Below are positions 20,038 to 36,583 of a DNA stretch of 40,555 nt, piece after piece. The stretch is from positions 1 through 40,555 of the forward strand of contig PLAH01000098.1 in NCBI GenBank assembly GCA_003134045.1, written 5' to 3'. Below the pieces are notes generated by a model. The model saw only the letters and a list, made by a program, of their open reading frames with translations, did no database searches and was not told where the DNA came from. Source of the stretch: Gammaproteobacteria bacterium (GTDB lineage: Bacteria > Pseudomonadota > Gammaproteobacteria > Steroidobacterales > Steroidobacteraceae). The number at the start of each line of letters is the position of its first letter. Position 1 is the first letter of the stretch. The position numbers were made by a program, and so were the translations under genes.

Positions 20038-20042
20038 GGTAA

Positions 20043-20327
20043 ACCTGGGCCCCGAGGGGCGAGACTCCGGTCCTGCAGTACAGCTTCAGCTGGAAACAAC
20101 TGGCGGTGATCGCTGGCTTGAGCTACTGGCGCTTCTACTTCCGAATGTTCAACGGATCGATCAAGAGTCCACAGATCGTCGAGTTCCTCAAAGCCTTGCA
20201 AGCCACGATTGGCAAGAAGCTGCTCATCATCTGGGATCGCTTGCAGGCGCATCGCTCGAAGCTCGTGCGGGCGCATGTCGAAGCCCAAAACGGTCACATC
20301 ATGATCGATTACCTGCCAGCCTACGCA
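20043..20327 (+). pseudogene. IS630-family transposase fragment (DDE domain)
   Basis: The frame opens after TAA 20040-20042 and reads TWAPRGETPVLQYSFSWK, then KKLLIIWDRLQAHRSKLV and HIMIDYLPAYA. This is the DDE_3 part of IS630-type transposases, including the second Asp (IIWDRLQAH). The N-terminal HTH, the first Asp and everything after LPAYA, where PELNPVE with the third acidic residue should follow, are missing. No terminal inverted repeats were seen. The fragment joins in frame to an SDR remnant. Confidence 0.8.
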
Positions 20328-20507
20328 GGCTACGGGCGCGTGATCAACACCGCTTCCGTGCACGGCCTGGTCGCTGAGAAGCAGCCATCTCGCCGATTGT
20401 CATCACCCGCGGAGATTGCGCGCCTCGCGTGCTGGCTGTGCGCGCCCGAGGCGCATAACATCACCGGCACCGCGATTCCGATCGACGGCGGATGGACGGC
20501 GCAGTAG
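20328..20507 (+). pseudogene. 3-hydroxybutyrate dehydrogenase (SDR) remnant with internal deletion
   Basis: It reads GYGRVINTASVHGLVA and then directly EKQPSRRLSSPAEIARL, LCAPEAHNITGTAIPIDGGW, ending TAQ-stop at 20505-20507. In 3-hydroxybutyrate dehydrogenases the first motif is strand beta-5 and the second lies about 100 residues later. So the catalytic YxxxK region is cut out, at a point where both sides code for Ala. It is fused in frame behind the transposase fragment. Inactive as an enzyme. Confidence 0.75.
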
Positions 20508-20557
20508 CGCCGCGATACCGCAACTCACGGACATGGTTACCGTGCTTCCTCCGTTGG

Positions 20558-22120
20558 TCAATCCGCCGCCACCGCCGCCGGCCCACCCCCCGACGGCCGC
20601 CGCACCAGGAAGCACAGCGGAATGAGCGCGACGCACAGCCACGCGGAAAGATAAAAGAGATCGAGCGACGAGAGGAGGTAGCTTTGTCCAACCAGGCTTT
20701 GCGTCATCGTGCCCGCGGCGGCCTGGTCAGTCATGCCGAACTGATGCAGCTGCGCCAGCGATTGCTGATACGCGGGGGCGTACACCGTGATGGAGTCGGT
20801 GAGCCGCGCCTGATGGAAGGCTTCACGCCGATCCCACAAGGTGGTGGTGAGCGACGTGGCGAAGCTGCCGGCGGTGATGCGCAGAAAATTCGACAGGCCC
20901 GACGCTGCGGGAATCTTGTGGTGCGGCAGTCCATCGAAAATCATCGTCAACATGGTGACGAAGAACAATCCCATGGCGAAGCCCTGCACGAGCTGCGGTG
21001 CGACGAAACTCAAGAAGCCGGCGTCGGCGGTAAGGCTGGCACGCATGAAATACGAGGTGGCGTAGAGGCCAAAGGCGGTCGCGGCAAGCAGCCGCGTATC
21101 GAAGCGGCGCATCAGGCTCCCGACAACGAGGGAGGTGAGAATGGCGGTGACGCCGCTCGGCGCGGAGACGAGGCCGGCCCAGGTGGCGGTGTAGCCCACG
21201 AAGCTTTGCAGCCACAAGGGCATCAGTACGATGTTGCCGAAGAACACCGCATAGCCCAAGCACAGGGCGAGCGTGCCCAAGGAAAAGCTGCGCGACTTGA
21301 ACAGACTCAGGTCCACGATGGGATACCGTTCGGTGAGTTCCCAGATCAGCCACGCGGCGAACGCAATGACGGTGACGATCAGCAGCCCTACGATGAAGGG
21401 CGAGGCGAACCAGTCGAGATCCTTGCCCTTGTCGAGCAGGATTTGCAGCGCGCCGACCCACACGAATAACAGCACCAGCCCGACACGATCGATGGGCAGT
21501 TTGCGCGTCGGCGTCTCGTGCGATTTGAGATTGCTCCAGCACACGGCCACGCACAACGCACCCACCGGCACGTTGATGAGAAAGATCCAGGGCCATACGT
21601 AGTTATCCGAGATGTAGCCGCCGAGCAGAGGCCCCGCGATCGGCGCCACCAGCGTCGTTATCGACCAGATCGCGAGCGCGGTGTTGCGCTTGGCGGGGCC
21701 GAACACGTTGATGAGCAGCGCCTGGCTGCCCGGGATCATGGGGCCCGACACGGCGCCCTGTAGTACGCGAAACGCGATCAGGGACGGCAGACTCCAGGCG
21801 AGCCCACAGAGCAGGGAGGCGATGGTGAACAAAGCCACCGACACCACGAAGGTTCGCACCACGCCGAAGCGCTGCATGAGCCAGCCGGTGAGCGGCACGG
21901 AGACGCCGTTGGCGACCGCAAATGAGGTGATGACCCACGTGCCTTGATCGGAGCTCACGCCCAAGTTGCCGGCAATAGTCGGAATGGACACGTTCGCGAT
22001 GGAGGTATCGAGCACCTGCATGAACGTGCCCAGGGCCAGGGCCAAGGCAGTCAGGGCCTTGCGATTTCCGACGAGCGAGGGAGCCGGGCCCACGCCGGGC
22101 GTGGCGGCCGCGGCGCTCAC
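20558..22120 (-). CDS. DHA2-family (EmrB/QacA) 14-TM drug:H+ antiporter
   Basis: The 520-residue product starts at GTG 22120, overlapping the upstream HlyD gene by 4 bases (GTGA). The DHA2 signature LDTSIANVSIPTIAGNLG is at the first helix, followed by SFAVANGVSVPLTGWLMQRFG and about 14 hydrophobic segments. It is the inner-membrane component of a tripartite EmrAB-type pump exporting hydrophobic or phenolic compounds using the proton gradient. It is the last gene of marR-nodT-emrA-emrB. Confidence 0.93.
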   Translation of the reverse strand: MSAAAATPGVGPAPSLVGNRKALTALALALGTFMQVLDTSIANVSIPTIAGNLGVSSDQGTWVITSFAVANGVSVPLTGWLMQRFGVVRTFVVSVALFTIASLLCGLAWSLPSLIAFRVLQGAVSGPMIPGSQALLINVFGPAKRNTALAIWSITTLVAPIAGPLLGGYISDNYVWPWIFLINVPVGALCVAVCWSNLKSHETPTRKLPIDRVGLVLLFVWVGALQILLDKGKDLDWFASPFIVGLLIVTVIAFAAWLIWELTERYPIVDLSLFKSRSFSLGTLALCLGYAVFFGNIVLMPLWLQSFVGYTATWAGLVSAPSGVTAILTSLVVGSLMRRFDTRLLAATAFGLYATSYFMRASLTADAGFLSFVAPQLVQGFAMGLFFVTMLTMIFDGLPHHKIPAASGLSNFLRITAGSFATSLTTTLWDRREAFHQARLTDSITVYAPAYQQSLAQLHQFGMTDQAAAGTMTQSLVGQSYLLSSLDLFYLSAWLCVALIPLCFLVRRPSGGGPAAVAAD

Positions 22121-23409
22121 GGGCCGGCGGCCGCCAGGGACGTAACGTTCGGGGCTTCACGCGTCTTGCGGCTGAGCCGCGCGGGTTCGTGTGCTTTGGG
22201 GCCGGCGTTATCGGCGATGATGGATGCGATGCGCGCATCCACCGCGGGATCGTTGCCCGCGCTTGCCTGCGTCGTCTGCGGCACGTTGCGCACCGCCGCG
22301 GCCACGAGCGGACCCGCGGCATCGTGCAAGTCGACTCGGACGGCGGCCGACAAACCGACACGCAAGGGATGCGCTTCGAGGTCCTTCGGATCCAAGAGGA
22401 TGCGCACCGGCAGGCGCTGCACGATCTTGATCCAGTTGCCGGACGCATTCTGGGGCGGCAGCAGCGCGAAGGCGTTACCGCTGCCCGCGGCGATGCCCAC
22501 CACGCGCCCGTGATAGGTCACGTCGCCGCGATAGAGGTCGGTATGCACCGTTACCGGTTGGCCGACTCGCATGCGCTCGAGCTGTCCTTCCTTGAAGTTG
22601 GCATCGATCCACACAGTGTCGAGCGGCACCACGGCCAAGAGCGGCGTACCCGCGGCGACGCGCTGGCCGATTTGCACGGAGCGTTTGGCGATCACGCCGC
22701 TGACCGGCGAGGTGAGCTCGGTGCGATGCAAGGCGAGCGCGGCATTGCGCACCGCGGCGGCGGCGGCCAGCACCTGCGGATGGTCCGCAATGGTGGTGCC
22801 GTCGATCTGCGCCACGGTCTGACCCAGTTGCTGGCGCGCGGCCGCGACATTGGCGCGCGTGGTAGTGACGGCATCGCGCGCATGCGACAGCTCTTCGGCA
22901 GAGATGGCGCCGTCCGCGATGAGGCCGCCGCGCCGCTTCAGATCCTCATCGGCGGTGCGTGCCGCCTGTTCCCGCTGCTCGATCTGTGCGCGCAACTCCT
23001 GGCCTTGCGCGAAGAGGCCGCGCACCTGGCGCACGGCGCGCGCGAGGTCGGCTTCCGCATTGGCCTCGGCGATCTTCGCGTCGGCCGGATCGAGCTCCAG
23101 CACGGCCTGCCCGACGGCGACGCGTTGCGTGTCATCCACGTGCAAACCGATCACCGTGCCGGGTACTTCACTGGTGATCTGCACCACATCGCCGTCGACA
23201 TAGGCATCATCGGTGGATTCATAGTAGCGGCCGTCCAAGAACCAATACGCCGCATAGCCCACACCGCACAACAGCACCACGGCGGTCAGGCCGATGAGAG
23301 ATCGGCGGCGTGCCCGGCCGGGCGCAGGCGCCTCGCCGGCCCGGTCGGTCTGGCCGGCAGCGGAGCTTGCAGGAGCATCGGTGGTCACTGAGGTCGTTGG
23401 CGTGTTCAT
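22117..23409 (-). CDS. HlyD/EmrA-family membrane fusion protein
   Basis: The 430-residue product has an N-terminal cytoplasmic tail, one TM helix (LIGLTAVVLLCGVGYAAYWFL), then the biotinyl-lipoyl-like halves (YVDGDVVQITSEVPGTV; LTSPVSGVIAKRSVQIGQRV) flanking a long helical hairpin rich in Ala/Glu/Arg (about 110-210). Start ATG 23409 overlaps the nodT stop (ATGA). It is the periplasmic adaptor between the DHA2 antiporter and the NodT channel. The C-terminal 60 residues (HEPARLSRKTREAPNV) look like an unstructured tail, longer than usual. Confidence 0.93.
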   Translation of the reverse strand: MNTPTTSVTTDAPASSAAGQTDRAGEAPAPGRARRRSLIGLTAVVLLCGVGYAAYWFLDGRYYESTDDAYVDGDVVQITSEVPGTVIGLHVDDTQRVAVGQAVLELDPADAKIAEANAEADLARAVRQVRGLFAQGQELRAQIEQREQAARTADEDLKRRGGLIADGAISAEELSHARDAVTTTRANVAAARQQLGQTVAQIDGTTIADHPQVLAAAAAVRNAALALHRTELTSPVSGVIAKRSVQIGQRVAAGTPLLAVVPLDTVWIDANFKEGQLERMRVGQPVTVHTDLYRGDVTYHGRVVGIAAGSGNAFALLPPQNASGNWIKIVQRLPVRILLDPKDLEAHPLRVGLSAAVRVDLHDAAGPLVAAAVRNVPQTTQASAGNDPAVDARIASIIADNAGPKAHEPARLSRKTREAPNVTSLAAAGP

Positions 23410-24884
23410 GGGTGCATCCGTGGAGAGTTCGTCGGTATGGCCGCCAGAGCTCGCGCATCGGCCTGCTGTACCGCGGCGTGGGCATCGATCGCGTGCGCAT
23501 CGAAACTGCCGCCCACGGCGAGTAGCAGCGTCACTCGCGCAGCGGCGAGACCGGCCTGGATGTCGACCATCGACTGGCGTGCGGCGAGCACCTGGGTCTC
23601 CGCATTGAGCACCGAAAGGTAGCTCGCGAGGCCCGCTGTGTAGCGCTCCTCGGCCAATCTGTAAGCGTCTTCCGTGGCATCGAGCGTTTGCTGCTGATCG
23701 AGCCGCTCGCGCGCGAGCGCATCCAGGCGGGTGATCTGATCGGAAGTCTGTTGCACGGCATGCAGGACGGTGTCGTTATAGGCATCTATCGCAGCGTCGA
23801 GCTGTGCCTCGGAGCCACGATATTGCGCACGCAGGCGGCCGCCGTCGAACAGCGGCAGCGAAATCAGCGGACCGCCGCCGTAACCCCGCGCGGAACCCTG
23901 CAGCAGATTGCTCAGCCCAAAGGCGCCGAAGCCCGCCAGCGCGCGCAGACTCACGTCGGGATAGAACGCGGCCCTGGCGGCGAGGCGTCCGGCATCGGCG
24001 GCATCCACGGCGAGGCGGGCCGACAACACATCGGGCCGCCGCGCGAGCAGATTGATGGGCAGTGCACCCGGCACCGGGAGCGCCGCTTCCACGGCAAACA
24101 CAGGCCGCTTGATCGATGCGTAAACTTGGGCGCCCTGGCCGATCAACGTGGCGAGTTGATGGACCGCGAGATCCGCCGCGGCCCGAGCTTGGACGCGTGC
24201 CACCCGGGCCTGCGGCAATTGGCCTTCGGCTTCACGCAATTCGAGCCGCGTGTCGAGCCCGGCGGTCACGCGGCGGCGCGTGATGTCGATGATGTGCTGG
24301 CGCTGCACCGCGGCGCGTTCGGCGATGTCGGCGAGCGCCCATTCACGGTACAGCTCGATATAGGCCTGGGTGACGGCACCGGCAATCATGAGCCGCGCAT
24401 TGTCCACGTCCAGCCGGGCCGACTGCGTCAGCGCCTGCGCGCGATGCACGGCGGCGGCTTGGCGTCCCCAGAAATCGATGTCCCAGCCGAGGCTCGCCCC
24501 GGCTTGAGCCATCCAGAAGCTGTGTCCCGCGAGCGGCGGGGGAATCAAATACTCGGCGGGCGCGCGCTGGTACAGCGCGCTTGCATCGAGGTTGGCGTTC
24601 GGCAGCAGTCCAGCCTGCGCCGATTGCGCCTGCGCGAGCGCTTCGGCCACGCGGGCCTGGCCCTGCGCCAACGTTGGGCTGTCCTTGAGCCCGAGCCGGA
24701 TGAGTTCATCGAGCTGCGGATCTTGGAAGGAATTCCACCAGCCGTCGGCGACCGGCGCAGACTCGGCGCCGGTCAGTCCGACGCGCGCAGGCGCGAGCGT
24801 CGGCGGATGCGCCGCGTCCTTGGAGGGCAACACGCACCCCGTCATGGCCACGGAGACGAGCAATGAGGCGATCTGCATGCGCAT
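23406..24884 (-). CDS. NodT-family outer-membrane efflux lipoprotein
   Basis: ATG 24884 is chosen because it begins the lipoprotein signal MRMQIASLLVSVAMTGC, with lipobox Cys17; the frame is open further upstream but overlaps marR. The 492-residue product has DGWWNSFQDPQLDELIRLGL, two TolC-type repeats and the GYGGGPLISLPLFDGGRLRAQY segment characteristic of NodT/OprM channels. It starts 5 bases past the marR stop and overlaps emrA. It supplies the outer-membrane exit of the pump. Confidence 0.93.
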   Translation of the reverse strand: MRMQIASLLVSVAMTGCVLPSKDAAHPPTLAPARVGLTGAESAPVADGWWNSFQDPQLDELIRLGLKDSPTLAQGQARVAEALAQAQSAQAGLLPNANLDASALYQRAPAEYLIPPPLAGHSFWMAQAGASLGWDIDFWGRQAAAVHRAQALTQSARLDVDNARLMIAGAVTQAYIELYREWALADIAERAAVQRQHIIDITRRRVTAGLDTRLELREAEGQLPQARVARVQARAAADLAVHQLATLIGQGAQVYASIKRPVFAVEAALPVPGALPINLLARRPDVLSARLAVDAADAGRLAARAAFYPDVSLRALAGFGAFGLSNLLQGSARGYGGGPLISLPLFDGGRLRAQYRGSEAQLDAAIDAYNDTVLHAVQQTSDQITRLDALARERLDQQQTLDATEDAYRLAEERYTAGLASYLSVLNAETQVLAARQSMVDIQAGLAAARVTLLLAVGGSFDAHAIDAHAAVQQADARALAAIPTNSPRMHP

Positions 24885-24889
24885 GGGTA

Positions 24890-25378
24890 TCAGCCGACGC
24901 CGGCCGCGCTCAGCTCGGGCTCGACGGCCCCCAGCAATTGGGTGTTGAGCTTGATGAGCAGGCGCTGGAACTCGTGCACTTCGGCGCGACTGAAGTCGGC
25001 TAGCGCGAGATTGAGCTTGCCAACCACCAAGGGAACGAGATTCTCGAGGGTGTCGCGGCCCGCCGCCGTCAACTGCAACTCCACTTTGCGACGATCGCGG
25101 TCGCGGCGCACCCTCTCCAGCAACCCGCGGTCTGCCAACTGGTCGATGACGCGCGTGAGCGCGCCGCTGTCGTGGCGATATTGCGCACAGATGTCCTTGG
25201 GATTCACGGCGATGCCATCGCGAATCCACGCCAGGATCATGTATTGCAGGAAGGTGAAACCCCGCTCTTCGAACACCGGCTCCATTAGGTCCATCATCAG
25301 CGACTGAGCGCGCTTGATGAGATAGCCGATGCTGTCCTGTGCGCGGTAGGTCGCCACTTTATAATGCTGCTTGGACAC
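24890..25378 (-). CDS. MarR-family transcriptional repressor of the efflux operon
   Basis: The 162-residue product starts at GTG 25378 with GAGG about 7 bases upstream. The winged-helix core reads FTFLQYMILAWIRDGI, DICAQYRHDSGALTRVIDQLADRGLLERVRRDRDRRKVELQLT, the typical MarR DNA-recognition helix and wing. It is the first gene of a four-gene operon coding an EmrAB-NodT pump. A 25-bp palindrome lies just upstream of its start, so it most likely represses its own operon and is released by the exported phenolic-type ligand. Confidence 0.93.
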   Translation of the reverse strand: MSKQHYKVATYRAQDSIGYLIKRAQSLMMDLMEPVFEERGFTFLQYMILAWIRDGIAVNPKDICAQYRHDSGALTRVIDQLADRGLLERVRRDRDRRKVELQLTAAGRDTLENLVPLVVGKLNLALADFSRAEVHEFQRLLIKLNTQLLGAVEPELSAAGVG

Positions 25379-25382
25379 TTAA

Positions 25383-25407
25383 TGCCTCAGCATTTACTGC
25401 TTAGGCA
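25383..25407 (-). promoter_or_regulatory. MarR operator: 25-bp inverted repeat
   Basis: Plus-strand arms TGCCTCAGCA and TGCTTAGGCA are complementary at 9 of 10 positions and flank TTTAC. The site begins 5 bases upstream of the marR GTG and covers the predicted transcription start and the SD. A bound MarR dimer could block both initiation and clearance. Confidence 0.7.
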
Positions 25408-25410
25408 GCT

Positions 25411-25438
25411 ATTTTGCGCCAAGCCACGTGTTTGTCAA
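25411..25438 (-). promoter_or_regulatory. Promoter of the marR-nodT-emrA-emrB operon
   Basis: On minus, TTGACA (25438-25433, perfect -35) and CAAAAT (25416-25411, 4 of 6) are separated by 16 bases. The predicted start near 25404 lies inside the operator palindrome, and the leader is only about 25 bases. Confidence 0.6.
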
Positions 25439-25793
25439 GCCGATGCGCCCACTTATCGCCATCGTTCAATGGCAATGCTGAATGCCTCGAGAAGCAATCG
25501 ACGGCAAAGCCGCAGTTCCGCATTGCAGCGTGCGGCCTGCCAGTTCGGAATAGATGCGCGACGCTGGGCAATGACCTTCAGCAATAGCCCTTGGTAGGCC
25601 GATGCGTCTCCAATCGCAGATGACCCATTGGAGAAATTCCGCTTGCAACAATGGTATACCCGCATAAGCTCGCCTTACTTCGCAAATCGCGCTCGATTCT
25701 GCGGCGCGCCGCGGCGTCGCATCGCACCGTAGAGCATCGGCAATGCGCGCGTTGTTTGTTGCCGCATTTAATGAGAAAGTGCACTCGAATCGA
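25439..25793. other. Intergenic region without a recognisable gene
   Basis: This stretch lies between the efflux promoter and the DUF3562-like gene. A minus-strand frame over about 25454-25660 (containing IGDASAYQGLLLKVIAQRR) looks protein-like in composition but matches nothing I recognise and has no SD-supported start. No repeat or RNA element was seen. Confidence 0.4.
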
Positions 25794-26051
25794 ATGACCG
25801 ACACAATCGATTCCCAACCAATCGACATTACGCGGGGTGATGGTATGACCGAGCCGACCTCAGATATTGACGATCCTCCGGGAATTCAGGCGCTTTCCGA
25901 GAAGCTGAATGTCCCTGAATTGAAAATCATCGAAGTCTACAAAACTGAATATCGCCGGCTTGCCGCCGAATCACGGATCGCGACGTTCATCAGTGTGCTT
26001 GCGATGCGCAATACTCGTTCGATTCTCCGGCGGGGCGGTGCTGTTAATTAA
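25794..26051 (+). CDS. Small DUF3562-like protein
   Basis: Starts are possible at ATG 25794 (85 residues) or ATG 25845 (68 residues, preceded by GGGGTGATGG). The core IQALSEKLNVPELKIIEVYKTEYRRLAAESRI-ATFISVLAMRNTR resembles the DUF3562 family, a short helical domain of unknown function found in many proteobacteria. The first part is acidic and probably disordered (TEPTSDIDDPPG). It stands alone; function unknown. Confidence 0.6.
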   Translation: MTDTIDSQPIDITRGDGMTEPTSDIDDPPGIQALSEKLNVPELKIIEVYKTEYRRLAAESRIATFISVLAMRNTRSILRRGGAVN

Positions 26052-26178
26052 GAACGATCGCTGAAGCCCTGCCTGACGGTCCCACATCCACCGCTTGGAA
26101 CGGTCGCTGCGAAATTCGACCACGCCCTTCAATCGTCATCCAGCAGTCGCGCCGCTGTCAAAATCCTTGGCTACGATG

Positions 26179-26198
26179 CCTTCCGATCCAACGGAAGG
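26179..26198 (+). promoter_or_regulatory. Hairpin sequestering the SD of the small gene at 26207
   Basis: CCTTCCG (26179-26185) pairs perfectly with CGGAAGG (26192-26198) around ATCCAA. The right arm contains the GGAAGGA SD of the next ATG, so folding would hide the ribosome-binding site. Confidence 0.45.
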
Positions 26199-26206
26199 AC
26201 ACGGCA

Positions 26207-26434
26207 ATGGATATCGAATCCCGGCTTCGCGCGCTCGAGTTGCGCTACGGTCAGTTGCTGAGCGCCGCGGCAGCGGCCAAAGGGCACTACCTCGCGCTGC
26301 TCGACGAACCGGGGTCCATCAAATCGACGGTCAAACGCGCGCGCCATCGGTGGGAGAACCTGGACGCCAGAAAACGTGCGATCGCCGCCCGCATGGGTGA
26401 AATTGAAGGCGTGGAACGAGATCTGATGATCTAG
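26207..26434 (+). CDS. Small helical hypothetical protein
   Basis: A 75-residue product starts at ATG 26207 with GGAAGGA 8-14 bases upstream. It is rich in Ala, Arg, Leu and Glu with a heptad-like pattern (IESRLRALELRYGQLLSAAA, NLDARKRAIAARMGEIEGVE), suggesting a short coiled coil. I do not recognise a family. It might be a real small gene or a decayed one; good SD and uniform composition favour real. Confidence 0.5.
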   Translation: MDIESRLRALELRYGQLLSAAAAAKGHYLALLDEPGSIKSTVKRARHRWENLDARKRAIAARMGEIEGVERDLMI

Positions 26435-26457
26435 CCGCGAATGACAGCAAAGTTATC

Positions 26458-26961
26458 CTAACTCCGCGGCTCCTTTGCCGTGGAGTACGTAGGAATCTTC
26501 TGCGCGGCCGGCGCCGGTCCCGCCGCTCGCGGGCCCCGAAGCGCTTCGGCCGGACAATTCCTGTCGATGAAATCCTGGTGCGTCGGCATGGCGTCGGCGC
26601 AGTTTTTCACCACGACGCGAATGTCGTCCAGATTGGCTTTGATCTTCTGCGGGTCCAGGCTGTCCGCCATCGGATCGTAACCGCGCGGCACGATGTTCTG
26701 ACCGATCATCACGAACAGCCAGCTCTGGACGGGGAAGAGCTCGGTATCCTCGCGCAGGATGCGGCCATGGCTGCGGAACAGATCGCCTTCGATCATTTCG
26801 CCGCTTTCCAAAGTCACCGATTCGATGAATCCGTCCTCGGGCCTGAGCGTCGCGCCCTGGACCTTGCCTTCGGTGCGCCTGACGCCGCGCGCTTCCGCGA
26901 ACCTCCGCAGGTAGCGCGCGAACAGCGAGGCATCGAAATGCAGCGCATAGGTGATCTTGTT
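26458..26961 (-). pseudogene. Flavin-dependent (tryptophan-type) halogenase, C-terminal half with internal deletion
   Basis: On minus the protein reads NKITYALHFDASLFARYLRR, FAEARGVRRTEGKV and ESVTLESGEMIEGDLF. It then jumps at about 26775 to GRILREDTELFPVQSWLFVM, GQNIVPRGYDPMADSLDP and NCADAMPTHQDFIDRNCP. Both parts match PrnA-like halogenases, but roughly 200 residues between them are lost while the frame is kept. The upstream half of the same gene sits on the opposite strand at 27136-27318. The reading frame is joined upstream to a Kef-antiporter piece. Non-functional as a halogenase. Confidence 0.75.
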
Positions 26962-27129
26962 TCGCGGCATGACGACGCCTGCGAGGAACGCCCCGAACAG
27001 CGCATGGATACCCATCGCCTGGGTTGCCAGGGCCGAGGCAGTCATGAAGACGAGCACCGTCGCGATGGTGCCCGGGCCCTTGCCGCCGTGCGTTCGCTCC
27101 ACGGTCAGCAGCCGCGCCAGTACTGGACG
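26962..27129 (-). pseudogene. Kef-type cation:proton antiporter fragment (middle part)
   Basis: On minus it reads [16 protein letters not shown], then [20 protein letters not shown] and GIHALFGAFLAGVVMPR, two membrane helices of the Na+/H+ exchanger (Kef/CPA2) domain including the conserved HALFGAFLAGxVMPR. It continues in frame into the halogenase piece at 26961. Its own downstream part is on plus at 27315-27590. Confidence 0.75.
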
Positions 27130-27135
27130 CGGCCT

Positions 27136-27318
27136 GGCGATTCCTATTTCCATCCGTTCGGCCCGACCGGTTTCGGAATGGGATCCATCTCATTCCCCTC
27201 GTATTGGCTGAAGCTGTTCCTGGAGGGCAAAGCGGGGCGGCTGGAAGAGTATTCCATACAGGCAGTGGCGGCCGAGCGGGGCAAATTCATGCGTCCGGTG
27301 CATGCGCCCAAGACGCCG
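27136..27318 (+). pseudogene. Flavin-dependent halogenase fragment (N-terminal-side part)
   Basis: On plus it reads [40 protein letters not shown] and [13 protein letters not shown], matching the segment that precedes YALHFDAxLxARYLR in tryptophan halogenases. That following segment is found on minus at 26961. TGA at 27319-27321 ends the frame at the junction with the antiporter piece. Confidence 0.7.
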
Positions 27319-27590
27319 TGACGGGAAAACTGGTTGGCAGCATGATACCGGCGCGGCTCACCGGGATGTCCTGGAACGAGGCGTTCTCGCTGGGCGCGCT
27401 GATGAACACGCGCGGCCTCGTCGAGCTGATTGCACTCAACATCGGCTACGATCTGGGCATTCTTCCGCCGCGGATTTTTTCCATGATGGTGCTGATGGCG
27501 CTCGCCACTACCTTCATGACCGGTGCGCTCCTCAGCTTGGCGAGTTGGGCCCAAGAGCGCGGGGCGGCCCTGGCCGCTGCCGCGCGCTAG
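27315..27590 (+). pseudogene. Kef-type cation:proton antiporter fragment (C-terminal part)
   Basis: On plus it reads [60 protein letters not shown] and [12 protein letters not shown], ending at 27588-27590. These are the last three helices of the CPA2/Kef exchanger domain. About 60 residues expected between HALFGAFLAGVVMPR (minus, 26962) and this piece are absent. The soluble C-terminal domain is also missing. Confidence 0.8.
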
Positions 27591-27683
27591 CTTGGTTGCC
27601 GGCCGAATCCGCCCCCTATTTCAGATCACAGCCGTGACGGCTGACTTCCTGTGGCCTCGATAAACTGCGACCGCCCAGTGCAC

Positions 27684-27830
27684 TCACCCCGCGGCCAACA
27701 GGGGTTCCAATTCCAACTCGCATTGCCGGGCGTCGCGAAACAATACAGTGTGCAGCCCGATCGCCTGAGCCGCTTCGTGTGCGGCGGGTGATCATCGACG
27801 AACCCGGACGCCGTCACGAGCACGGCAGCA
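27684..27830 (-). pseudogene. HAD-family hydrolase C-terminal remnant, frameshifted
   Basis: On minus, VTASGFVDDHPPHTK is followed one frame over by EAAQAIGLHTVLFRDARQCE and LEPLLAAG-stop (stop at 27686-27684). This matches the HAD motif IV FVDD with its usual tail (HxxAAxxLGxHTVLFRD). Only about 47 residues remain. Confidence 0.5.
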
Positions 27831-28003
27831 ATCATGGGCGCTCGAGGACTTGACTACGCCCCAACCAGGAGGCTCAGCCTGCCATAATCAGCCGCCTCTA
27901 CGCCCCGAGTGCAGACATGCCAGACAAATAATGCAACCATCGCAGAGGACTGCAACTGCAGCTCCGGCGGCCCTGCAGCCGGATATAACCTCAAGGAGCG
28001 CGT

Positions 28004-29533
28004 GTGTCGGACCGGCCGAATATCTTGATTTTGATGGCAGATCAGCTCACCGCAAAGGCGCTGCCCGCCTACGGCAACCGAGTTGCCAAGACGCCGCATA
28101 TCGACGCGCTTGCGGCAGGCGGAGTGGTATTCGATTCCTTCTACTGCAACAGCCCGCTGTGTGCGCCCTCCCGCTTCTCGTTTCTGTCGGGGCGCCAGGT
28201 GTCAGCCATCGGCGCATACGACAACGCCGCGGAATTTCCGGCGCAAGTGCCGACTTTCGCGCATTACCTGCGACGCAGCGGCTATCAGACGGTGTTGAGC
28301 GGCAAGATGCATTTTTGCGGTGCCGATCAGCTGCACGGCTTTGAGGAACGGCTGACCACCGACATCTATCCCGCCGATTTCGGCTGGACTCCCGACTGGA
28401 GCCGGTTTGAACATCGCCCGAGCTGGTATCACACCATGGATTCGGTGACTCAGGCCGGACCGTGCGTACGCACCAACCAAATCGACTTCGACGACGAAGT
28501 CATATTCAACGCACGCCAGAAATTGCTGGACATCGCCCGTGCCAAGGATAAGCGCCCCTTTTGCATGGTCGCCTCCATGACACATCCGCATGACCCCTAC
28601 GCGGTTCCCCACAAGTACTGGGACAGATACGCCGACGCGGTGATCGACATGCCGCGGGTGTCGATACCCACGCAGCAGCTCGACCCCCATTCGAAGCGTC
28701 TGCGCCACGTAATCGGATTGGACCTGCTGCCGGTGACGGAGCAACAGACGCGGGCCGCGCGCCGTGCCTACTACGGCGCGGTGTCCTACGTAGACGACCA
28801 AATCGGCGTGATGCTGGAAGCGCTGGCCGATGCAGGCTTCACCGATGACACGATCATATTGTTGCTGGCCGATCATGGCGACATGCTGGGCGAGCGCGGG
28901 CTTTGGTACAAGATGAACTTCTTCGAGCCGGCCTGCCGCATTCCGTTCATCGTCCATGCGCCGAGCCGTTTCAGCCCGCGTCGGGTGGGGCACGCCGCCT
29001 CGCTCGTCGACCTGTTGCCTACTTTATGCGAACTGGCCGGCGGCAACGCCGCGGATTTTGCGACCCCGCTCGACGGCACCAGTCTGGTGCCGCAAATGCA
29101 CGGCGCCGCCGGCAGCGATGAGGTCATCGGCGAGTATCTGGGAGAAGGCGCGATCGCACCGTTGTTGATGATCAAGCGCGGCCGCTACAAGTTCGTGCAT
29201 TCGCCCGTCGACCCCGATCAATTGTACGATCTCGACGAAGATCCCGATGAACTGCGCAATCTGGCGGCCGAGCCGGACCATGGCGCGCGAGTCCACGCAT
29301 TTCGTGGGGAAGTGCAGCGCCGCTGGGATGTGCCTGCCTTGCACTCGGCTGTGCTCGCAAGTCAGCAGCGCCGGCATCTGGTCTACGAGGCATTGCGCTC
29401 GGGACGCTACACGCCGTGGGACTTCCAGCCGCTGCGCGATGCCAGCCGGCTTTACGTTCGCAATGATCAGGATTTGGGAGATTTTGAGGCCATGGCTCGG
29501 TTTCCCCCCTCCTCGTCATCCGGACCTTGGTGA
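28004..29533 (+). CDS. betC: Choline-sulfatase-like type I sulfatase
   Basis: The 509-residue product starts at GTG 28004 with AAGGAG about 6 bases upstream. The formylglycine motif CAPSR has Cys53 and Arg57. Metal and active-site segments are ILILMADQ (Asp13), SGKMHFCG, HPHDPY and ADHGDMLGERGLWYK. The C-terminus WDFQPLRDASRLYVRN is the extension typical of choline-sulfatase. It would hydrolyse choline-O-sulfate or a related sulfate ester in the cytoplasm (no signal peptide). No betA/betB genes or transporter are nearby, so the substrate is by family resemblance only. No formylglycine-generating enzyme gene is in the window. Confidence 0.85.
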   Translation: MSDRPNILILMADQLTAKALPAYGNRVAKTPHIDALAAGGVVFDSFYCNSPLCAPSRFSFLSGRQVSAIGAYDNAAEFPAQVPTFAHYLRRSGYQTVLSGKMHFCGADQLHGFEERLTTDIYPADFGWTPDWSRFEHRPSWYHTMDSVTQAGPCVRTNQIDFDDEVIFNARQKLLDIARAKDKRPFCMVASMTHPHDPYAVPHKYWDRYADAVIDMPRVSIPTQQLDPHSKRLRHVIGLDLLPVTEQQTRAARRAYYGAVSYVDDQIGVMLEALADAGFTDDTIILLLADHGDMLGERGLWYKMNFFEPACRIPFIVHAPSRFSPRRVGHAASLVDLLPTLCELAGGNAADFATPLDGTSLVPQMHGAAGSDEVIGEYLGEGAIAPLLMIKRGRYKFVHSPVDPDQLYDLDEDPDELRNLAAEPDHGARVHAFRGEVQRRWDVPALHSAVLASQQRRHLVYEALRSGRYTPWDFQPLRDASRLYVRNDQDLGDFEAMARFPPSSSSGPW

Positions 29534-29624
29534 CCGGCTATTTTGCTGGCTTGCAAGGGTTGGGAAGCGGAGCGACTGCGTTATTTGCCCCCGTAGATAG
29601 GCACTAAAGGTTTTGCAACTGCGT

Positions 29625-30194
29625 TTATCTCTTCGCTTCGCGCTCGAGAAGCGCCCTCTTGCGCTCGATACCCCACCGGTACCCCGCCAGATCGCCATTG
29701 GCACACACCGCTCTGTGACATGGAATTGCGACCGCCAATCGGTTGGCCGCACACGCTTGCGCTACCGCCCGGACCGCGTCCGGTGCGCCGATCTGTTCGG
29801 CCAAGAACGTGTAGCTCACCGTCGTGCCGGCGGGCACTTTCTGCAAGGCCTCCCATACCCGCGTCTGGAAATCGGTGCCGCGAATATCCAGAGGCAGGTC
29901 CAACGCCTGATCGGGACGCTCGATCAGGCCCACTACTTTCGCGACCAGTTCGGGGTCGTCCCGCTTGATCTCGATCGCGTCGTTCGGAAACTGATTCTGC
30001 AAATCGCTCACCAGCGCTTCCGGATCATCCCCCACCAGGATCGAGCGAATCAATTGCTCGGACACGGCGATGATGACGAAGCCCAGTGAGCACGGTGCGA
30101 TGGCAAAGCCGATGGTCGCCGCCGCCCGGATGAGGGGGATGAGCACGTTGGCTCCGGCGCGTTCCGCGGCTGCGTTGGGTCTAAATGTAGACAT
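29625..30194 (-). CDS. Methylated-DNA-[protein]-cysteine S-methyltransferase (Ada C-domain/Ogt type)
   Basis: The 189-residue product starts at ATG 30194 behind AAGGAG. It has the FQTRVWEALQKVPAGTTVSYTFLAEQIG helix-turn-helix, the acceptor site IPCHRAV with Cys159, and GYRWGIERKRALLEREA. It transfers O6-alkyl groups from guanine to its own cysteine, a suicide repair reaction. The AdaA zinc/AraC-type activator domains are missing, so it is not a regulator. The N-terminal extension (about 20 residues) is longer than in minimal Ogt. Confidence 0.9.
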   Translation of the reverse strand: MSTFRPNAAAERAGANVLIPLIRAAATIGFAIAPCSLGFVIIAVSEQLIRSILVGDDPEALVSDLQNQFPNDAIEIKRDDPELVAKVVGLIERPDQALDLPLDIRGTDFQTRVWEALQKVPAGTTVSYTFLAEQIGAPDAVRAVAQACAANRLAVAIPCHRAVCANGDLAGYRWGIERKRALLEREAKR

Positions 30195-30380
30195 GATCTT
30201 CTCCTTGGGTTAGTCGATAGTGGTCAAGTTAGCAAGGTGCCTTCAACGAGAAACTCCGCATCTTGCTGTCGTCGCGGATGCGTGTACCCCACCGCGGACC
30301 GGGTTGTCGGAACCTCTCGAGGCACCGCGGCTCGGTATCGGTACGCCCGATCGCGTCCGCGGTACTTTGCCGGCGTAGTT

Positions 30381-31349
30381 TCAGTTCACATCAAAGCGTT
30401 CGCCGACCAACTCTTCGCTCTTCTGCCAAAGCGCCTGTGCGCGTTGTGGATCGAGGGCGTAAGGCTGCACACCGCCGCGCAAGCCGGGGATCGAGACGAT
30501 CTCGGCGACGTGGCAATCTTCGCAATACCGACCGCCAATCGCCTCAGAATCAGCGACGAAAGCAGCCCATACAGAAGTTGCCGCACCCTGAGGAATGGTC
30601 TTGTAGCTAAAGGGCGCGGCGCCTTTGGGCAAGCTGGCGTTGATCTCCGCCATCAATCTCGCTCTCACCTCGGTCGTCATGTATCGCCCGAGCTCGGTTT
30701 CGATGGCCCCGGGGTGCAACGCCGTTGCCCGCACACCGCGCGCTTTGTGCCGGCGATCGAACTCGACGGCAAAGAGCACATTGGCGGTCTTGGAGCGGCC
30801 GTAGGCCGTGAACTCGGCATAGGGTGAGTGCTCGAAGTTCGGGTCTTCAAGATCGACGTCCGCAAATCGGTGGCCCGCTGAAGAGAGGTTCACCAACCGT
30901 GAACCTGGCTTGAGCAGCGAAGCGATGCGGTTCACCAGAACGAAGTGTCCGAGGTGGTTGGTGCCGAACTGCGTCTCAAAGCCATCGACGGTGGTGCCCT
31001 TCGGGCACGCCATGACGCCGGCGTTGGCAATGATCACGTCGAGAGGCTTGCTCGCGGCCAACAGACCGTCGGCGCAGCGACGGACACTGTCGAGCGAGGC
31101 CAGGTCGAGTTGGACCAAGTGAAACGAACCCCCGCTCCTGGCCTGCGCGCGGACCTGCTCCGTAGCGGCCTGCGCCTTGGATAGGTCGCGCGCCGCTCCG
31201 ATGACTTCCGCTCCATGCGCCGCCAGCACGCGCGCGGTCTCGACACCGAGGCCCGCGGAGACGCCGGTGACGAGCACGCGCTTGCCGCTCAGGTCGATGC
31301 CGCGCAGCACCTCGTCGGTCGTCGATGTCGCTCCGAATGAATTGGTCAT
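30381..31349 (-). CDS. Short-chain dehydrogenase/reductase (retinol-dehydrogenase/WWOX-like)
   Basis: ATG 31349 is chosen because GCGAGG lies about 10 bases upstream and the promoter elements at 31434-31462 lie beyond it; 322 residues result. Motifs: TGVSAGLG (cofactor), NAGVMACP, FGTNHLGHFVL, NLSSAGHRF and catalytic YGRSK. Substrate is unknown. It is divergent from a TetR regulator across a region with paired operators, so expression is probably repressed by that TetR and induced by the SDR's substrate or a related toxic carbonyl. Confidence 0.9.
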   Translation of the reverse strand: MTNSFGATSTTDEVLRGIDLSGKRVLVTGVSAGLGVETARVLAAHGAEVIGAARDLSKAQAATEQVRAQARSGGSFHLVQLDLASLDSVRRCADGLLAASKPLDVIIANAGVMACPKGTTVDGFETQFGTNHLGHFVLVNRIASLLKPGSRLVNLSSAGHRFADVDLEDPNFEHSPYAEFTAYGRSKTANVLFAVEFDRRHKARGVRATALHPGAIETELGRYMTTEVRARLMAEINASLPKGAAPFSYKTIPQGAATSVWAAFVADSEAIGGRYCEDCHVAEIVSIPGLRGGVQPYALDPQRAQALWQKSEELVGERFDVN

Positions 31350-31409
31350 GGTCAAAACCTCGCCGTATCTACGTATGGCCCTACCGCTGACCATGTAAAA
31401 ATGATCTAA

Positions 31410-31438
31410 TTGAAGTGGAGGGAACCTCCGTTTAATAT
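31410..31438 (+). promoter_or_regulatory. Promoter of the tetR gene
   Basis: TTGAAG (31410-31415) and TAATAT (31433-31438) are separated by 17 bases. The spacer contains the palindrome GGAGG-GAA-CCTCC (31417-31429). Confidence 0.6.
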
Positions 31439-31453
31439 ACGGAGGCTTCCTCC
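31417..31453. promoter_or_regulatory. Twin TetR operators, GGAGG-N3-CCTCC twice
   Basis: Two perfect 13-bp palindromes, GGAGG-GAA-CCTCC (31417-31429) and GGAGG-CTT-CCTCC (31441-31453), lie 24 bp centre to centre. The outward-facing pair CCTCCGT...ACGGAGG (31425-31445) forms a third, overlapping inverted repeat across the shared -10 region. The most likely binder is the adjacent TetR protein. Confidence 0.7.
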
Positions 31454-31462
31454 GTTTTGCAA
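31434..31462 (-). promoter_or_regulatory. Promoter of the SDR gene
   Basis: On minus, TTGCAA (31462-31457) and TATATT (31439-31434) are separated by 17 bases, with GGAGG-N3-CCTCC in the spacer. Its -10 overlaps the -10 of the opposite tetR promoter. Confidence 0.6.
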
Positions 31463-31490
31463 GCGCTAAATCAGGAACCGACCGATAAAC

Positions 31491-32075
31491 GTGAAACGAA
31501 CGCCGACCGCCCAGCTGCGCAAACCCCGCGCCGACAGTGCCCGCAATCGACAATTACTGATCGATGCCTCCAAGGCGGGGTTCTCGGACGTCGGGCTGAA
31601 TGTGAGCCTGGAAGAAATCGCGCGTCGCGCCGGCGTCGGCATCGGCACCCTGTATCGCCATTTCCCCAGCAGGGAGGCCGTAGTGGAAGCGGTTTACCGG
31701 CGAGAAGTCGAGCAGCTCGCTGAAGCCGTGCCGCGGCTGCTCGAGTCCTCGCCGGCGGGTGAGGCGCTGCATCAGTGGATGCATCTGTTCGTCGATTACA
31801 TCGCCACGAAGCGCTTGATCGCCCCATCACTCGCAGCGGTGGCGGGCCGCACGCCCACGCTTTATGCGACGTCCTCTGAACTCATCACGCGCGCGATTTC
31901 TACGCTCGTGAAACGCGCCATCGAGAGCGGCGATGTGCGCAAGGATATCGATCCCACCGACTTACTCCGAGGGATGGTCGGAGTCAGTTACGGAAATACC
32001 GATCAGGGCTGGGAAGCGAGCGCGCGCCGACTCATCGACATTCTGATGGATGGATTGCGGCGCAAACATCGATAA
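31491..32075 (+). CDS. TetR-family transcriptional repressor
   Basis: The 194-residue product starts at GTG 31491 (AGGA about 14 bases upstream, a weak SD). Residues 15-65 are the TetR HTH: RQLLIDASKAGFSDVGLNVSLEEIARRAGVGIGTLYRHFPSREAVVEAVY. The rest is the helical ligand/dimer domain (TetR_C type with SELITRAISTLVKRAIESGDVRKDIDPTDLLRGMVG). It faces the SDR gene and two operator palindromes; it is probably the repressor of both. Convergent with the tannase-family gene, 13 bases apart. Confidence 0.93.
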   Translation: MKRTPTAQLRKPRADSARNRQLLIDASKAGFSDVGLNVSLEEIARRAGVGIGTLYRHFPSREAVVEAVYRREVEQLAEAVPRLLESSPAGEALHQWMHLFVDYIATKRLIAPSLAAVAGRTPTLYATSSELITRAISTLVKRAIESGDVRKDIDPTDLLRGMVGVSYGNTDQGWEASARRLIDILMDGLRRKHR

Positions 32076-32088
32076 ATGGACGGGCTGC

Positions 32089-33753
32089 TCACTTTGCCTT
32101 CTCCGGACTTACACAGCTGAAGCTTGCCGCTTCGTTCTGCGGGCCACCCGTGACCGAGGTGTACTTCGGCCAGGATGGGAACAAGCACATGGGTCGCGCG
32201 CGCTTTACAGCACTCGGATTTTCGTCGATCGCGATCAAAGTCCCTGGCGCACGGCCCTTGTCGACCCAATCATCGAGCACTCCCAATCCATCGTATCTGG
32301 CGTTGAAACTGCCGAATCCATGTGAGAAGCCTGGGATTTCATAGAAACGCACGAAGCCATCCATCGCCTTGCGGCCCTGCAGGGCCAAATGGCGCTCGTA
32401 GTAGGCTTCGCTGTTGTGCGGGGAGATAAAATCATCTTCCGTACCGTGGGTCATGATGATCTTCCCTCCCCGCTTGCGAAACGGCGTCAAGTCGATGTCG
32501 GTGACATCCATGATGGTACCGGCCTCCTCGACGCGCGCCTTCCATTCCCCCGGATTGAACGTGAGGGCATCGAACGTCGGGTTACGCGTAATGATGTACT
32601 TGGTCGTCGCGGCACCGGCGTTGTACAGCAAGGCATCGTCGGTGGTGGGAGGATTCGCCGGCACGCGGCGACTTCCGAAATTGGAGACCTCGAAACGGGA
32701 ACCTTCCAAAAGAGCCCAGCGGGGAAAGACTTCGGCGCCGGCGATCGCGAACCCTGGACGGTAGGGGGAGGAGATTTTGTCCACTGCATCGATTTGCGCG
32801 TCGGACAGACAATCATCCCCGGTATCCGCGCCGCCGGCGCAGCGCAAGGTAGCGCGTACCGTGGCGACGGTAAATGCCGCATGACACGCCTCGACATTGC
32901 TGACGATACCGTCGGTCGCACCGTCCAAAGGGTCGCAAGCGGTGCGAACCGCACCGGTCAGCAGTTTGGTCTTCGCGGCGTTCAGCCAGCCCGCGCCGCC
33001 ATTGTTGTACAGCGCGTTGCCGACATTCAAGGAAGCGAGATGCAGCATGGTCACGTTGTAGGCCGGATAGTTGGCCACCACGCCGTCATAGTCTTTCGGG
33101 TAGCGGGCGGCGGCATCCAACGCCTCATGGCCACCCTGAGAATTGCCGATGAAGTAGAAGCGCCGCGGCAAACGCCCGTAATGGGCACGGACGATGTCCA
33201 CCACGACATCGTGAACCTTCTTCACGGACTGCTGCCCGTAATTCAACAGGGCCTCATCGTTGAGCCCGAAGGAACCGTCGAAACCCGGCCCACCTTCGTG
33301 GCCGCCATCGCTCCCCGCGGTCACATAACCGCGTTTGAGTGGCGTTGCATCAGCGGACGGCTGCAGCCCCTCGCCCTTGAGCCCGGTGACCAGGGAACCA
33401 TCGAAACCACCGCCCCCCATTTGCAAAACCTTCCTATTCCAGTTGACCGGCAGGTTGACCTCGAACTGGATGTTCGGCGCCGCCGTGGCCGGCAGAATCA
33501 CGCCCCTGACCAAGCAATATTCACCGTTGACATTGTTGGAAGACCCGGCGGCGACCACCGTCGCCGATTGCACGACGGCACCGCCCGTCGGCAGACCGAT
33601 GACGCCGGCCGGGATCTTCCTCCCCACCAGTGACTCGCAAGCGCTCTGCGCCGTCGCGCACAGGGGAGCCAGCAGGCAGAGGGCCAGCACCCACTTCGCA
33701 GGGGCGCACGCGCCAAAGCCGTTAAAGTGGATGTTGCGGGTATCGGAGTTCAT
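32089..33753 (-). CDS. Tannase/feruloyl-esterase family exported hydrolase
   Basis: The 554-residue product has a signal peptide (WVLALCLLAPLCATAQS) and the family core: GGGGFDGSL, the GYVTAGSDGGHEGG turn, FYFIGNSQGGHEAL with nucleophile Ser205, DPLDGATDGIVSNVEAC (calcium-site loop), GTEDDFISP (Asp) and GFSHGFG with His478. Known members release gallic or ferulic acid from plant esters. The two cysteines that flank Ser and His in the classical CS-D-HC arrangement are replaced here (Asn204 and Gly479). Product gallate would feed the ligAB dioxygenase elsewhere in the window; this link is inference. Confidence 0.85.
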   Translation of the reverse strand: MNSDTRNIHFNGFGACAPAKWVLALCLLAPLCATAQSACESLVGRKIPAGVIGLPTGGAVVQSATVVAAGSSNNVNGEYCLVRGVILPATAAPNIQFEVNLPVNWNRKVLQMGGGGFDGSLVTGLKGEGLQPSADATPLKRGYVTAGSDGGHEGGPGFDGSFGLNDEALLNYGQQSVKKVHDVVVDIVRAHYGRLPRRFYFIGNSQGGHEALDAAARYPKDYDGVVANYPAYNVTMLHLASLNVGNALYNNGGAGWLNAAKTKLLTGAVRTACDPLDGATDGIVSNVEACHAAFTVATVRATLRCAGGADTGDDCLSDAQIDAVDKISSPYRPGFAIAGAEVFPRWALLEGSRFEVSNFGSRRVPANPPTTDDALLYNAGAATTKYIITRNPTFDALTFNPGEWKARVEEAGTIMDVTDIDLTPFRKRGGKIIMTHGTEDDFISPHNSEAYYERHLALQGRKAMDGFVRFYEIPGFSHGFGSFNARYDGLGVLDDWVDKGRAPGTLIAIDENPSAVKRARPMCLFPSWPKYTSVTGGPQNEAASFSCVSPEKAK

Positions 33754-33979
33754 GCAAATCCTGAATGTTATTCTTTAGCGTAGAGCTAGCCGCAGGATCA
33801 TCCGCTAGAAGCACGGTATAAGGCAACCTCTCGCGCCGCCAGGAAAGACTCAAATCGCTCGATCGTGCCACAATGAGATACATGGCCGACCTCCGCCGGC
33901 ACAATGCAATGCGGATCACAACGGCGAACCAGCAAATCGATTAGCGGACCCAAGCGACGCTCGAGGGAGGAGGAGAAAC

Positions 33980-35605
33980 ATGGAAACGATCGGCGCAGAT
34001 CTACGTCAGATGCAGCGCATCCCGCTGGCCGCGTCGCACGTTGATGCCTTGCGTGCCGCGGGCAAGGTCGCTCGCTATCCTGCAGGTGCGTTTCTCGCGC
34101 AGCCCGGCGGCCCGATGGATCGCTTTGTGTACGTCGAGGAAGGCGAAGTCGAGGTAGTAAATCCCTATACCAATGAACGCCATTATTCCTCTACGATCGG
34201 TCCAACGCAGTTCTTGGGGGAAATTTCCTTCCTGAGCGGCGGCGCCTGGTCGATGCCGATGCGCGCAGTAAAGGATACGCGAGTGATCGAGGTGCCGCGC
34301 GAAGCGACCCTGACGCTGATGTCCCGAATTCCCGAGATGTCCGATATCATCATTACTGTCTTTTCCGCGCGCCGCCGCCGCGCGCTCGACGATAGTGCCA
34401 GCACTTTGCGGCTGATCGGCGAAGACGAGGACCGCGACGTGCGCCGTATCGCCACGTTTGCCAGCCGAAACCGCATTCCCTACACCTCGTTGCCACTCGG
34501 AAGCCCCGAGGCAGAGGCTACCGCCCACGGCTGTTCAGTCCCTGCCGGCCAGCCCGCGGTGATTTTTGGGCGAGACGTCGTCGTGGCCGATCCCACGCCG
34601 GACAAGGTAGCGCGGCTGCTCGGCCTCAATCTCGACTTCCGGGACGACGAAGAGTTCGACGTTCTCGTTGTCGGCGGCGGGCCTGCGGGAGTCGCTGCGG
34701 GGGGCTATGCCGGGGCCGAAGGCCTATGCGCGCTGGTTGTGGAAGACATTGCGATCGGCGGCCAAGCCGGCACCTCGAGCCGCATCGAGAACTATATGGG
34801 GTTCCCAACGGGTATATCCGGCGCTGACCTGGTCTGGCGCGGCGAAGTGCAGGCGATGAAGTTCGGAACGCGTTTTGCGATGCCGCGTAGGGTGGTGCTG
34901 CTCGAGAAGCTCGAGGATGCGAGCTTCTGCGCCACCTTCGACGGCGGCCAGCGCGTCCGCGCCAAGGCCGTCGTCGTCGCGACCGGTGTTCAGTACCGCC
35001 GGCTGCCGATCGACCGGCTCGAAGATTTCGAAGGCGCGGGCATCTACTATGCCGCGACCGAGATCGAGGCGCGCTACTGCAAGGAAACGGAAGCGGTCGT
35101 CATCGGCGGCGGCAATTCCGCCGGACAGGCCGCCATGTACCTCAGCCGCTCGGCGCGATGCGTGCGGCTGCTGGTGCGCGGGTCGTCGCTTGCCGCGTCG
35201 ATGTCGAGCTATCTTTCCAGTCGGCTCAACGCCGATCCTCGGATTGCGATCGAATACGGTGCCGAGGTGACTGCGTTGCACGGCGGCGGCCATCTCGACG
35301 CGCTGACCATCCGTGACGTGAAGACGGATGCGACTCGCGCCCTCGACACGCGTGCATTGTTCATCATGGTGGGCGCTTTGCCGAACACCGAGTGGCTCTC
35401 CGGGCTCGTCGATCTGGACGATAAGGGATTCGTCATCACGGGTTCCGGCGCCGACTCCGCGGCCTCTCCCTTCGCCACCTCGCAGCCCGGCATCTTCGCG
35501 GTCGGCGACGTACGCGCAGGCTCGGTTAAGCGCGTAGCCTCCTCCGTGGGCGAGGGATCGGTCGTAATCTCCAAAGTCTGGGAGTTTATCAATCGCAAAG
35601 GCTAG
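33980..35605 (+). CDS. cNMP-binding-domain / thioredoxin-reductase-like flavoprotein fusion
   Basis: ATG 33980 follows GAGGGAGGAGGAG. Residues 1-125 form a cyclic-nucleotide-binding beta roll (GAFLAQPG, FVYVEEGEVEVVNP, FLGEISFLSGGAWSM). Residues 150-215 are a short thioredoxin/glutaredoxin-like linker, and 225-541 a TrxR-type FAD/NADPH oxidoreductase (VLVVGGGPAGVAAGGYAG 229-246; VVIGGGNSAGQAAMYLSRS; GIFAVGDVRAGSVKRVASSVGEGSVV). The TrxR CATC redox pair is absent: the equivalent stretch reads YYAATEIEARYC. It may thus be a ferredoxin-reductase-like or sensory flavoprotein. Monocistronic, divergent from the tannase-family gene. Confidence 0.9.
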   Translation: METIGADLRQMQRIPLAASHVDALRAAGKVARYPAGAFLAQPGGPMDRFVYVEEGEVEVVNPYTNERHYSSTIGPTQFLGEISFLSGGAWSMPMRAVKDTRVIEVPREATLTLMSRIPEMSDIIITVFSARRRRALDDSASTLRLIGEDEDRDVRRIATFASRNRIPYTSLPLGSPEAEATAHGCSVPAGQPAVIFGRDVVVADPTPDKVARLLGLNLDFRDDEEFDVLVVGGGPAGVAAGGYAGAEGLCALVVEDIAIGGQAGTSSRIENYMGFPTGISGADLVWRGEVQAMKFGTRFAMPRRVVLLEKLEDASFCATFDGGQRVRAKAVVVATGVQYRRLPIDRLEDFEGAGIYYAATEIEARYCKETEAVVIGGGNSAGQAAMYLSRSARCVRLLVRGSSLAASMSSYLSSRLNADPRIAIEYGAEVTALHGGGHLDALTIRDVKTDATRALDTRALFIMVGALPNTEWLSGLVDLDDKGFVITGSGADSAASPFATSQPGIFAVGDVRAGSVKRVASSVGEGSVVISKVWEFINRKG

Positions 35606-35692
35606 TGACCGACGGCATGGGCCATCCGTGCCTGGAAAAGCGCCGGATGGCAGCGCGCCCATCCGGCGATCGAGTCCGAACGGCGAAGAATG

Positions 35693-36253: not shown

Positions 36254-36583
36254 TGCCCTTCTCCTCAGTCGTGTAGGGGTGGCGATTATCCCTCCAGGCC
36301 GTCGAGCACTCTGACAGATATCGGCGCTATCGAGTCTCAGAAGAAGCTGACGGCGCCGTCAGCGATTGCCAGCGCGAGCCCAAGGCCGGGAAATCGCGTA
36401 CGCCGCTCGATGTGAGGTCCGTTTCTCCCGCGCATCGGCATTCCAACCGCCCCCGAGGGCTCGGAGGGAGGCGAAAGCGTCATATCCCACAATGTTAAAC
36501 TTTGTGGGATACGTGCGCCAAATTGTGCCGCACAAACCGGAGCGCAAAAATCCGCTCTCGTAACCTCGGCCTGACGCCGGCTC
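36254..36583. other. 330-bp intergenic region between PfpI and YghU-like genes
   Basis: It holds the 16-bp perfect palindrome CTGACGGCGCCGTCAG (36347-36362) and the 29-bp inverted repeat at 36483-36511. On minus, a frame around 36420-36490 reads GYDAFASLRALGGGWNAD. This resembles the C-terminal end of NodT/TolC-like proteins (LYKALGGGW), but the similarity is too short to call a remnant with confidence. Confidence 0.4.
36483..36511. repeat. 29-bp near-perfect inverted repeat
   Basis: Arms TATCCCACAA and TTGTGGGATA are perfectly complementary; the inside, TGTTAAACT, continues the symmetry as GTT-A-AAC with one T/T mismatch. It is AT-rich against its surroundings, has no T-run on either side, and lies upstream of the PfpI gene. 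A transcription-factor operator fits better than a terminator. Confidence 0.6.

Follow-up and report, generated by a model that had tools for sequence, protein, structure and literature searches.

Two broken genes, one for a flavin-dependent halogenase and one for a cation:proton antiporter of the CPA2/Kef type, lie in pieces and in both orientations within about 1.1 kb (positions 26458-27590) of the 40,555-nucleotide stretch analyzed here (contig PLAH01000098.1, positions 1-40,555; referred to as the window). Two deletions and an inversion accompanied by loss of sequence, at short homologies, are very probably what produced this arrangement, which, as far as the assembly shows, is a real and well-resolved scar of gene decay. 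The loci, genomes, and contigs compared are designated by L-, G-, and C-numbers, respectively. Residue numbering follows two intact references, the 504-residue halogenase of L133 (metagenome-assembled genome Alphaproteobacteria bacterium isolate REEB149) and the 479-residue antiporter of L156 (genome G283).

Both genes were recognized by Pfam, by a PDB sequence search, and by tblastn searches of the whole window with five intact homologues, in which only the stretches described here matched at E < 0.1. On the minus strand, the tryptophan halogenase domain PF04820 covers 26458-26961 (E 3.3e-25), and the PDB search aligns this region in two gapped stretches, corresponding to residues 159-219 and 423-515 of 6y1w. 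It is composed of the halogenase C-terminal piece, from about residue 424 to the end (26458-26775; L133 residues 421-501 match 26784-26542 with 84% identity in tblastn, and blastn gives 87% over 278 bp to L133), and of residues 154 to about 212 (26785-26961; L133 residues 152-215 match 26967-26776 with 83% identity). The upstream piece, residues 88-152, is found on the plus strand at 27124-27318 (82% identity to L133 in tblastn; PF04820 on 27136-27318, E 9.7e-9) and is likewise supported as a halogenase by the PDB search. All three pieces thus align with the flavin-dependent tryptophan halogenase family (PF04820; PDB entries 6y1w and 6frl), at 82-84% identity to L133.

The antiporter C-terminal piece, including the stop codon, occupies 27315-27590 on the plus strand (PF00999, sodium/hydrogen exchanger of the CPA2/Kef family, E 2.3e-9; L156 residues 389-469 at 27315-27557) and shows 90% identity over 91 residues to the homologue in G283. 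The middle piece is on the minus strand at 26962-27129, where the PF00999 match (E 2.2e-5, 23.9 bits) falls just under the Pfam cut-off of 26.2 bits; in tblastn, L156 residues 276-338 match 27147-26956 with 69% identity, and residues 272-332 of the L157 homologue match with 75%. An initial annotation, made from the letters of the window alone, had named these pieces and their strands; Pfam and the five intact homologues confirm both, and every piece proposed there for alignment with the two families could be placed on an intact homologue.

Compared with their intact homologues, the pieces of each gene are colinear, lie on opposite strands, and are bounded by a common block. Across this block the halogenase is contiguous save for one codon (residue 153) relative to L133, L135, and L158, and the antiporter pieces follow each other in order. 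The colinearity with intact relatives supports an inversion of about 26962-27315, as the initial annotation had deduced. In addition to residue 153, the halogenase lacks residues 1-87 and 208 middle codons (624 bp, in frame); the antiporter has lost roughly its first 275 residues and, between its pieces, a further stretch of about 50 (339-388 of the L156 homologue). Accordingly, the loss of both gene starts claimed earlier is real, the former estimate of about 200 missing halogenase residues was close, and that of about 60 for the antiporter was too high. Two joints keep the reading frame, and the reported 231-codon frame joining the antiporter middle piece to halogenase sequence does exist (26458-27153, minus strand).

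The availability of close intact homologues allows most joints to be located to within a few bases. Joint A (26776-26784, minus strand) is the word GATCTGTTC, a 9-bp direct repeat at both ends of the 624-bp stretch of L133 that is absent from the window halogenase; a shared run of this length has a probability of 1.3e-4 for random joints within L133 (up to 400,000 draws, as for joint B). The left inversion joint, B (26956-26961, minus strand), is the 6-bp word AACAAG, common to the L156 antiporter and the L133 halogenase and present in all three halogenases compared, with a probability of 3.1e-3 for random antiporter-halogenase joints. The right inversion joint, C (27315-27318, plus strand), has the word GCCG in the window; the halogenase relatives have GCCG and the antiporters GCGG (L156) or GCCA (L157), the extent of the shared word being uncertain. 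The central joint D, the presumed site of the deletion of both gene starts, can be placed only within about 27119-27147, because this stretch reads as both genes: matches to the two homologues overlap there, and 27124-27147 reads as halogenase on the plus strand and, less well, as antiporter on the minus strand. The palindrome CCAGTACTGG lies by joint D at 27117-27126. A perfect 10-bp inverted repeat, TTGTTTCGCG / CGCGAAACAA (26957-26966 and 27734-27743), has one arm on the left inversion joint and could be due to chance.

In the ancestor, a halogenase gene on the minus strand and a CPA2/Kef-type antiporter gene on the plus strand would have stood head to head, probably once the pair had been acquired horizontally from another proteobacterial family. 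The deletion at joint D would have removed both gene starts and the sequence between them, and the 624-bp in-frame deletion in the halogenase would have occurred between the two copies of the direct repeat at joint A. An inversion of about 354 bp, with joints B and C, would have removed a single codon from the halogenase and about 150 bp from the antiporter. This listing implies no time order, and the order of the deletions relative to the inversion is not fixed by the data. Since the words at the left and right ends of the block differ and sequence was lost at both, unlike in plain inverted-repeat recombination, we favor for the inversion an out-and-back template switch during replication or repair. 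The growing strand would have left the halogenase at AACAAG, annealed to the antiporter copy of this word on the opposite strand, copied the block backwards, and returned at the GCCG joint.

Changes at short repeats in bacterial chromosomes have been described as deletions at direct and inversions at inverted repeats (Sun et al. 2012, PMC3411829). The scar resembles those cases in having a deletion at a short direct repeat and an inversion at a short inverted match, and differs from them in that several joints fall in a single 1.1-kb scar and the inversion lost sequence. Its deletion word (9 bp) is above the cut-off of 8 bp given there for deletions; the words at its inversion joints, of 6 bp and about 4 bp, fall under the cut-off of 12 bp deduced there for inversions.

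The whole scar could also stem from one replication event with multiple microhomology-primed switches, resembling microhomology-mediated break-induced replication (MMBIR), a somewhat doubtful variant that is compatible with the reading given above. The joints are all confined to 1.1 kb, every segment is present once, joints A and B carry short shared words, and the MMBIR model provides for several switches per event (PMC2621351). Stepwise loss at short repeats could, however, give the same scar, no intermediate being known, and bacteria do undergo spontaneous deletion and inversion at short repeats, both direct and inverted (PMC3411829). A single event of this kind, if true, would make the scar the bacterial equivalent, at base resolution, of the complex rearrangements ascribed to MMBIR. 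By comparison, an invertible (phase-variable) element or a selected antiporter-halogenase fusion gene seems extremely improbable. Such proposals can point to the two in-frame joints and the 231-codon frame, but of the 26 inverted repeat pairs in 25400-28010 none of the 25 longest flanks the block, the second arm of the perfect 10-bp pair at the left joint lies at 27734, no recombinase was found among the five neighboring window proteins scanned, and the N terminus and middle of the halogenase are gone.

Neither gene should yield a working product: the N terminus and middle are missing from the halogenase, and most of the membrane domain from the antiporter. The halogenase pieces cover positions 80-146, 145-207, and 414-457 of the 458-position PF04820 profile, so that homology to the family is present. 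Nothing in the window matches residues 1-87 of the homologues at E < 0.1, and the N-terminal GxGxxG segment, which binds flavin adenine dinucleotide (FAD), is absent with them. The central WxWxIP segment (WQWRIP in L133), expected in a working flavin-dependent halogenase, is not in the pieces and falls within the missing 208 codons. The antiporter pieces cover only positions 208-243 and 299-370 of the 375 in PF00999, the full membrane domain being absent, and the match to NCBIfam TIGR00932 is weak (32.6 bits versus a cut-off of 238.3). We regard the 231-codon frame as most probably accidental. A scan of 26350-27700 for sigma-70-type promoter-like sites gave none, which is weak evidence, as shuffles give only 0.2 such sites.

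The break of the genes looks recent, because the 375 codons of the pieces contain no stop codon and their ratio of nonsynonymous to synonymous substitution rates (dN/dS) is in the range of intact homologues (0.06-0.32 for the pieces versus intact homologues, 0.09-0.35 among the latter). The same lack of stop codons would suit joints created by library amplification or assembly rather than in the cell genome. The bin consists of 197 contigs, with 6.32% contamination, and multiple displacement amplification yields inverted chimeras with deletions, resembling joints B and C and mostly primed at 2-21 matching bases (PMC1855051). We nevertheless regard such a chimera as unlikely, because four joints within 1.1 kb would all have to beat the true reads, the bin is 96.77% complete, and it holds no near-identical second copy of either gene, the only paralogues being halogenases on C2 and C96 and an antiporter on C2 at 53% identity. 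Moreover, assemblers usually rely on words far longer than the 4-9 bp seen at the joints.

By its flanks, the contig is host-genus DNA. Positions 27600-40555 have matches, at 65-90% identity, in 31 of 45 genomes (counting the own genome), and these 31 include 21 of the 22 same-genus genomes; the left flank, as far as about 25420, likewise has matches in the genus. Contamination from the family of the L133 genome (hereafter the L133 family) was considered and rejected, as the flanks match same-genus genomes. The stretch between them, about 25420-28005, has no syntenic counterpart in same-genus genomes and shows only scattered matches: some to halogenases in G008 and G017, others of 55-103 bp to G003 and G014 at 26207-26311. 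When nine same-genus sulfatase loci were compared with window positions 20001-32000, only the sulfatase matched, L174 having just about 0.9 kb of upstream sequence. The stretch 25420-28005 also holds small frames with weak matches to DUF3562 and DUF7310, below the Pfam cut-offs.

All three halogenase pieces have their best identities in the L133 family. Similarly, the antiporter C-terminal piece, 90% identical to G283, reaches 80% in G296 and at most 70% in the host family outside its own genome; the 96 L133-family genomes do not overlap the 217 host-family genomes. As the contig is host-genus DNA and both genes are closest to another family, they were probably acquired horizontally, which is the simplest reading; alternatively, they may originate from an unsampled host lineage. 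A plasmid search returned antiporter fragments of 70-73% identity, in 5 records only. Antiporters of the window type were matched in G283 and G296 among the 96 L133-family genomes, and G386 was the sole match besides the own genome among 369 genomes of the host class. No halogenase piece was matched in the loci of these antiporters or in those of the nearest host-family ones (L118-L120, from G219, G224, and G248).

Head-to-head pairs of the two families exist in other genomes. Of the 52 halogenase rows scoring 400 bits or more, 11, each from a different genome, show an upstream CPA2 antiporter encoded on the other strand; two places are counted twice among the 52, and the loci were partly chosen since both genes matched on one contig. 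The paired loci are L158 (3910-6913) and L179-L183 of the L133 family and L113-L117 of genus g18 in the host family, with spacings between the matches of 89-253 bp in ten genomes and 1,885 bp in L180. In a less biased count, 12 of the 96 L133-family genomes match the halogenase; at the best nine places (74-85% identity) a head-to-head antiporter is present in six (G323, G274, G316, G275, G320, and G283) and not in G256, G255, and G318. Genome G283 has antiporters of both kinds: the one in its head-to-head pair is located on C58, the one of the window type on C67. The g18 pairs (L113-L117) were considered as direct orthologs of the window genes and rejected, their antiporter showing 27-32% identity over the middle piece and 46-54% over the C-terminal piece. 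A head-to-head ancestor of the window genes is plausible. The originally divergent pair of the initial annotation holds insofar as halogenase/CPA2 pairs are real in 11 genomes; it falls short in that their antiporter is of another subfamily and the exact pair was not seen.

Several observations weigh against an imported head-to-head pair broken at short homologies. In the intact pairs the antiporter belongs to another CPA2 subfamily, with 45-57% identity over the C-terminal piece versus 90% for the G283 homologue. Searches of the 96 L133-family, 369 host-class, and 217 host-family genomes did not find the exact intact pair; no halogenase piece was matched near the best window-type antiporters (L156 and L157), and no antiporter was found near the halogenases of L133, L134, L135, and L184. 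The window flanks were not found next to each other in relatives, so there is no empty site to compare, and the single-piece trees, of 61-78 columns, are weak, the first piece having no resolved sister. At the joints, the word of joint A is complete on both sides only in L133 among the five homologues, being shorter or broken in L113, L114, L134, and L135; that of joint B is present in one of two antiporters, L157 having GACAAG; and homology at joints C and D appears weak or cannot be fixed. The antiporter subfamily of the known pairs, like the missing syntenic counterpart of 25420-28005 in same-genus genomes, would fit a lineage-specific stretch in which scraps of two genes came to lie together without ever having been a native divergent pair. 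This seems improbable to us, as the continuity of the halogenase and the ordered antiporter pieces require head-to-head adjacency before the inversion.

The two deletions and the inversion with loss of sequence, our preferred reading, amount to ordinary gene decay, and the scar provides a small, apparently recent case of a dispensable, probably imported gene pair being dismantled in a bacterial genome. Perhaps a more useful by-product is that halogenases of this clade often form a head-to-head pair with a CPA2 antiporter gene (11 genomes, two families), which hints at a linked function. No literature was found on such an arrangement, including under tryptophan halogenase, TonB-dependent, antiporter, and gene cluster.

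Other arrangements of these genes were observed in the loci compared. In L157 (G296, 5995-9070), the window-type antiporter is directly upstream, on the same strand, of another halogenase (PF04820, E 3.9e-114), and a gene for a putative TonB-dependent receptor lies further upstream. In L133 (137-1939 and 3741-5255) and L135 (126-1928), the close halogenase homologue is near a gene whose product is a putative ClC-like chloride channel. Finally, a separate loss is seen in L040 (G058, 5588-7675), where an intact antiporter frame stands beside the remnant of a divergent halogenase that matches just 41-44 residues of the upstream piece.
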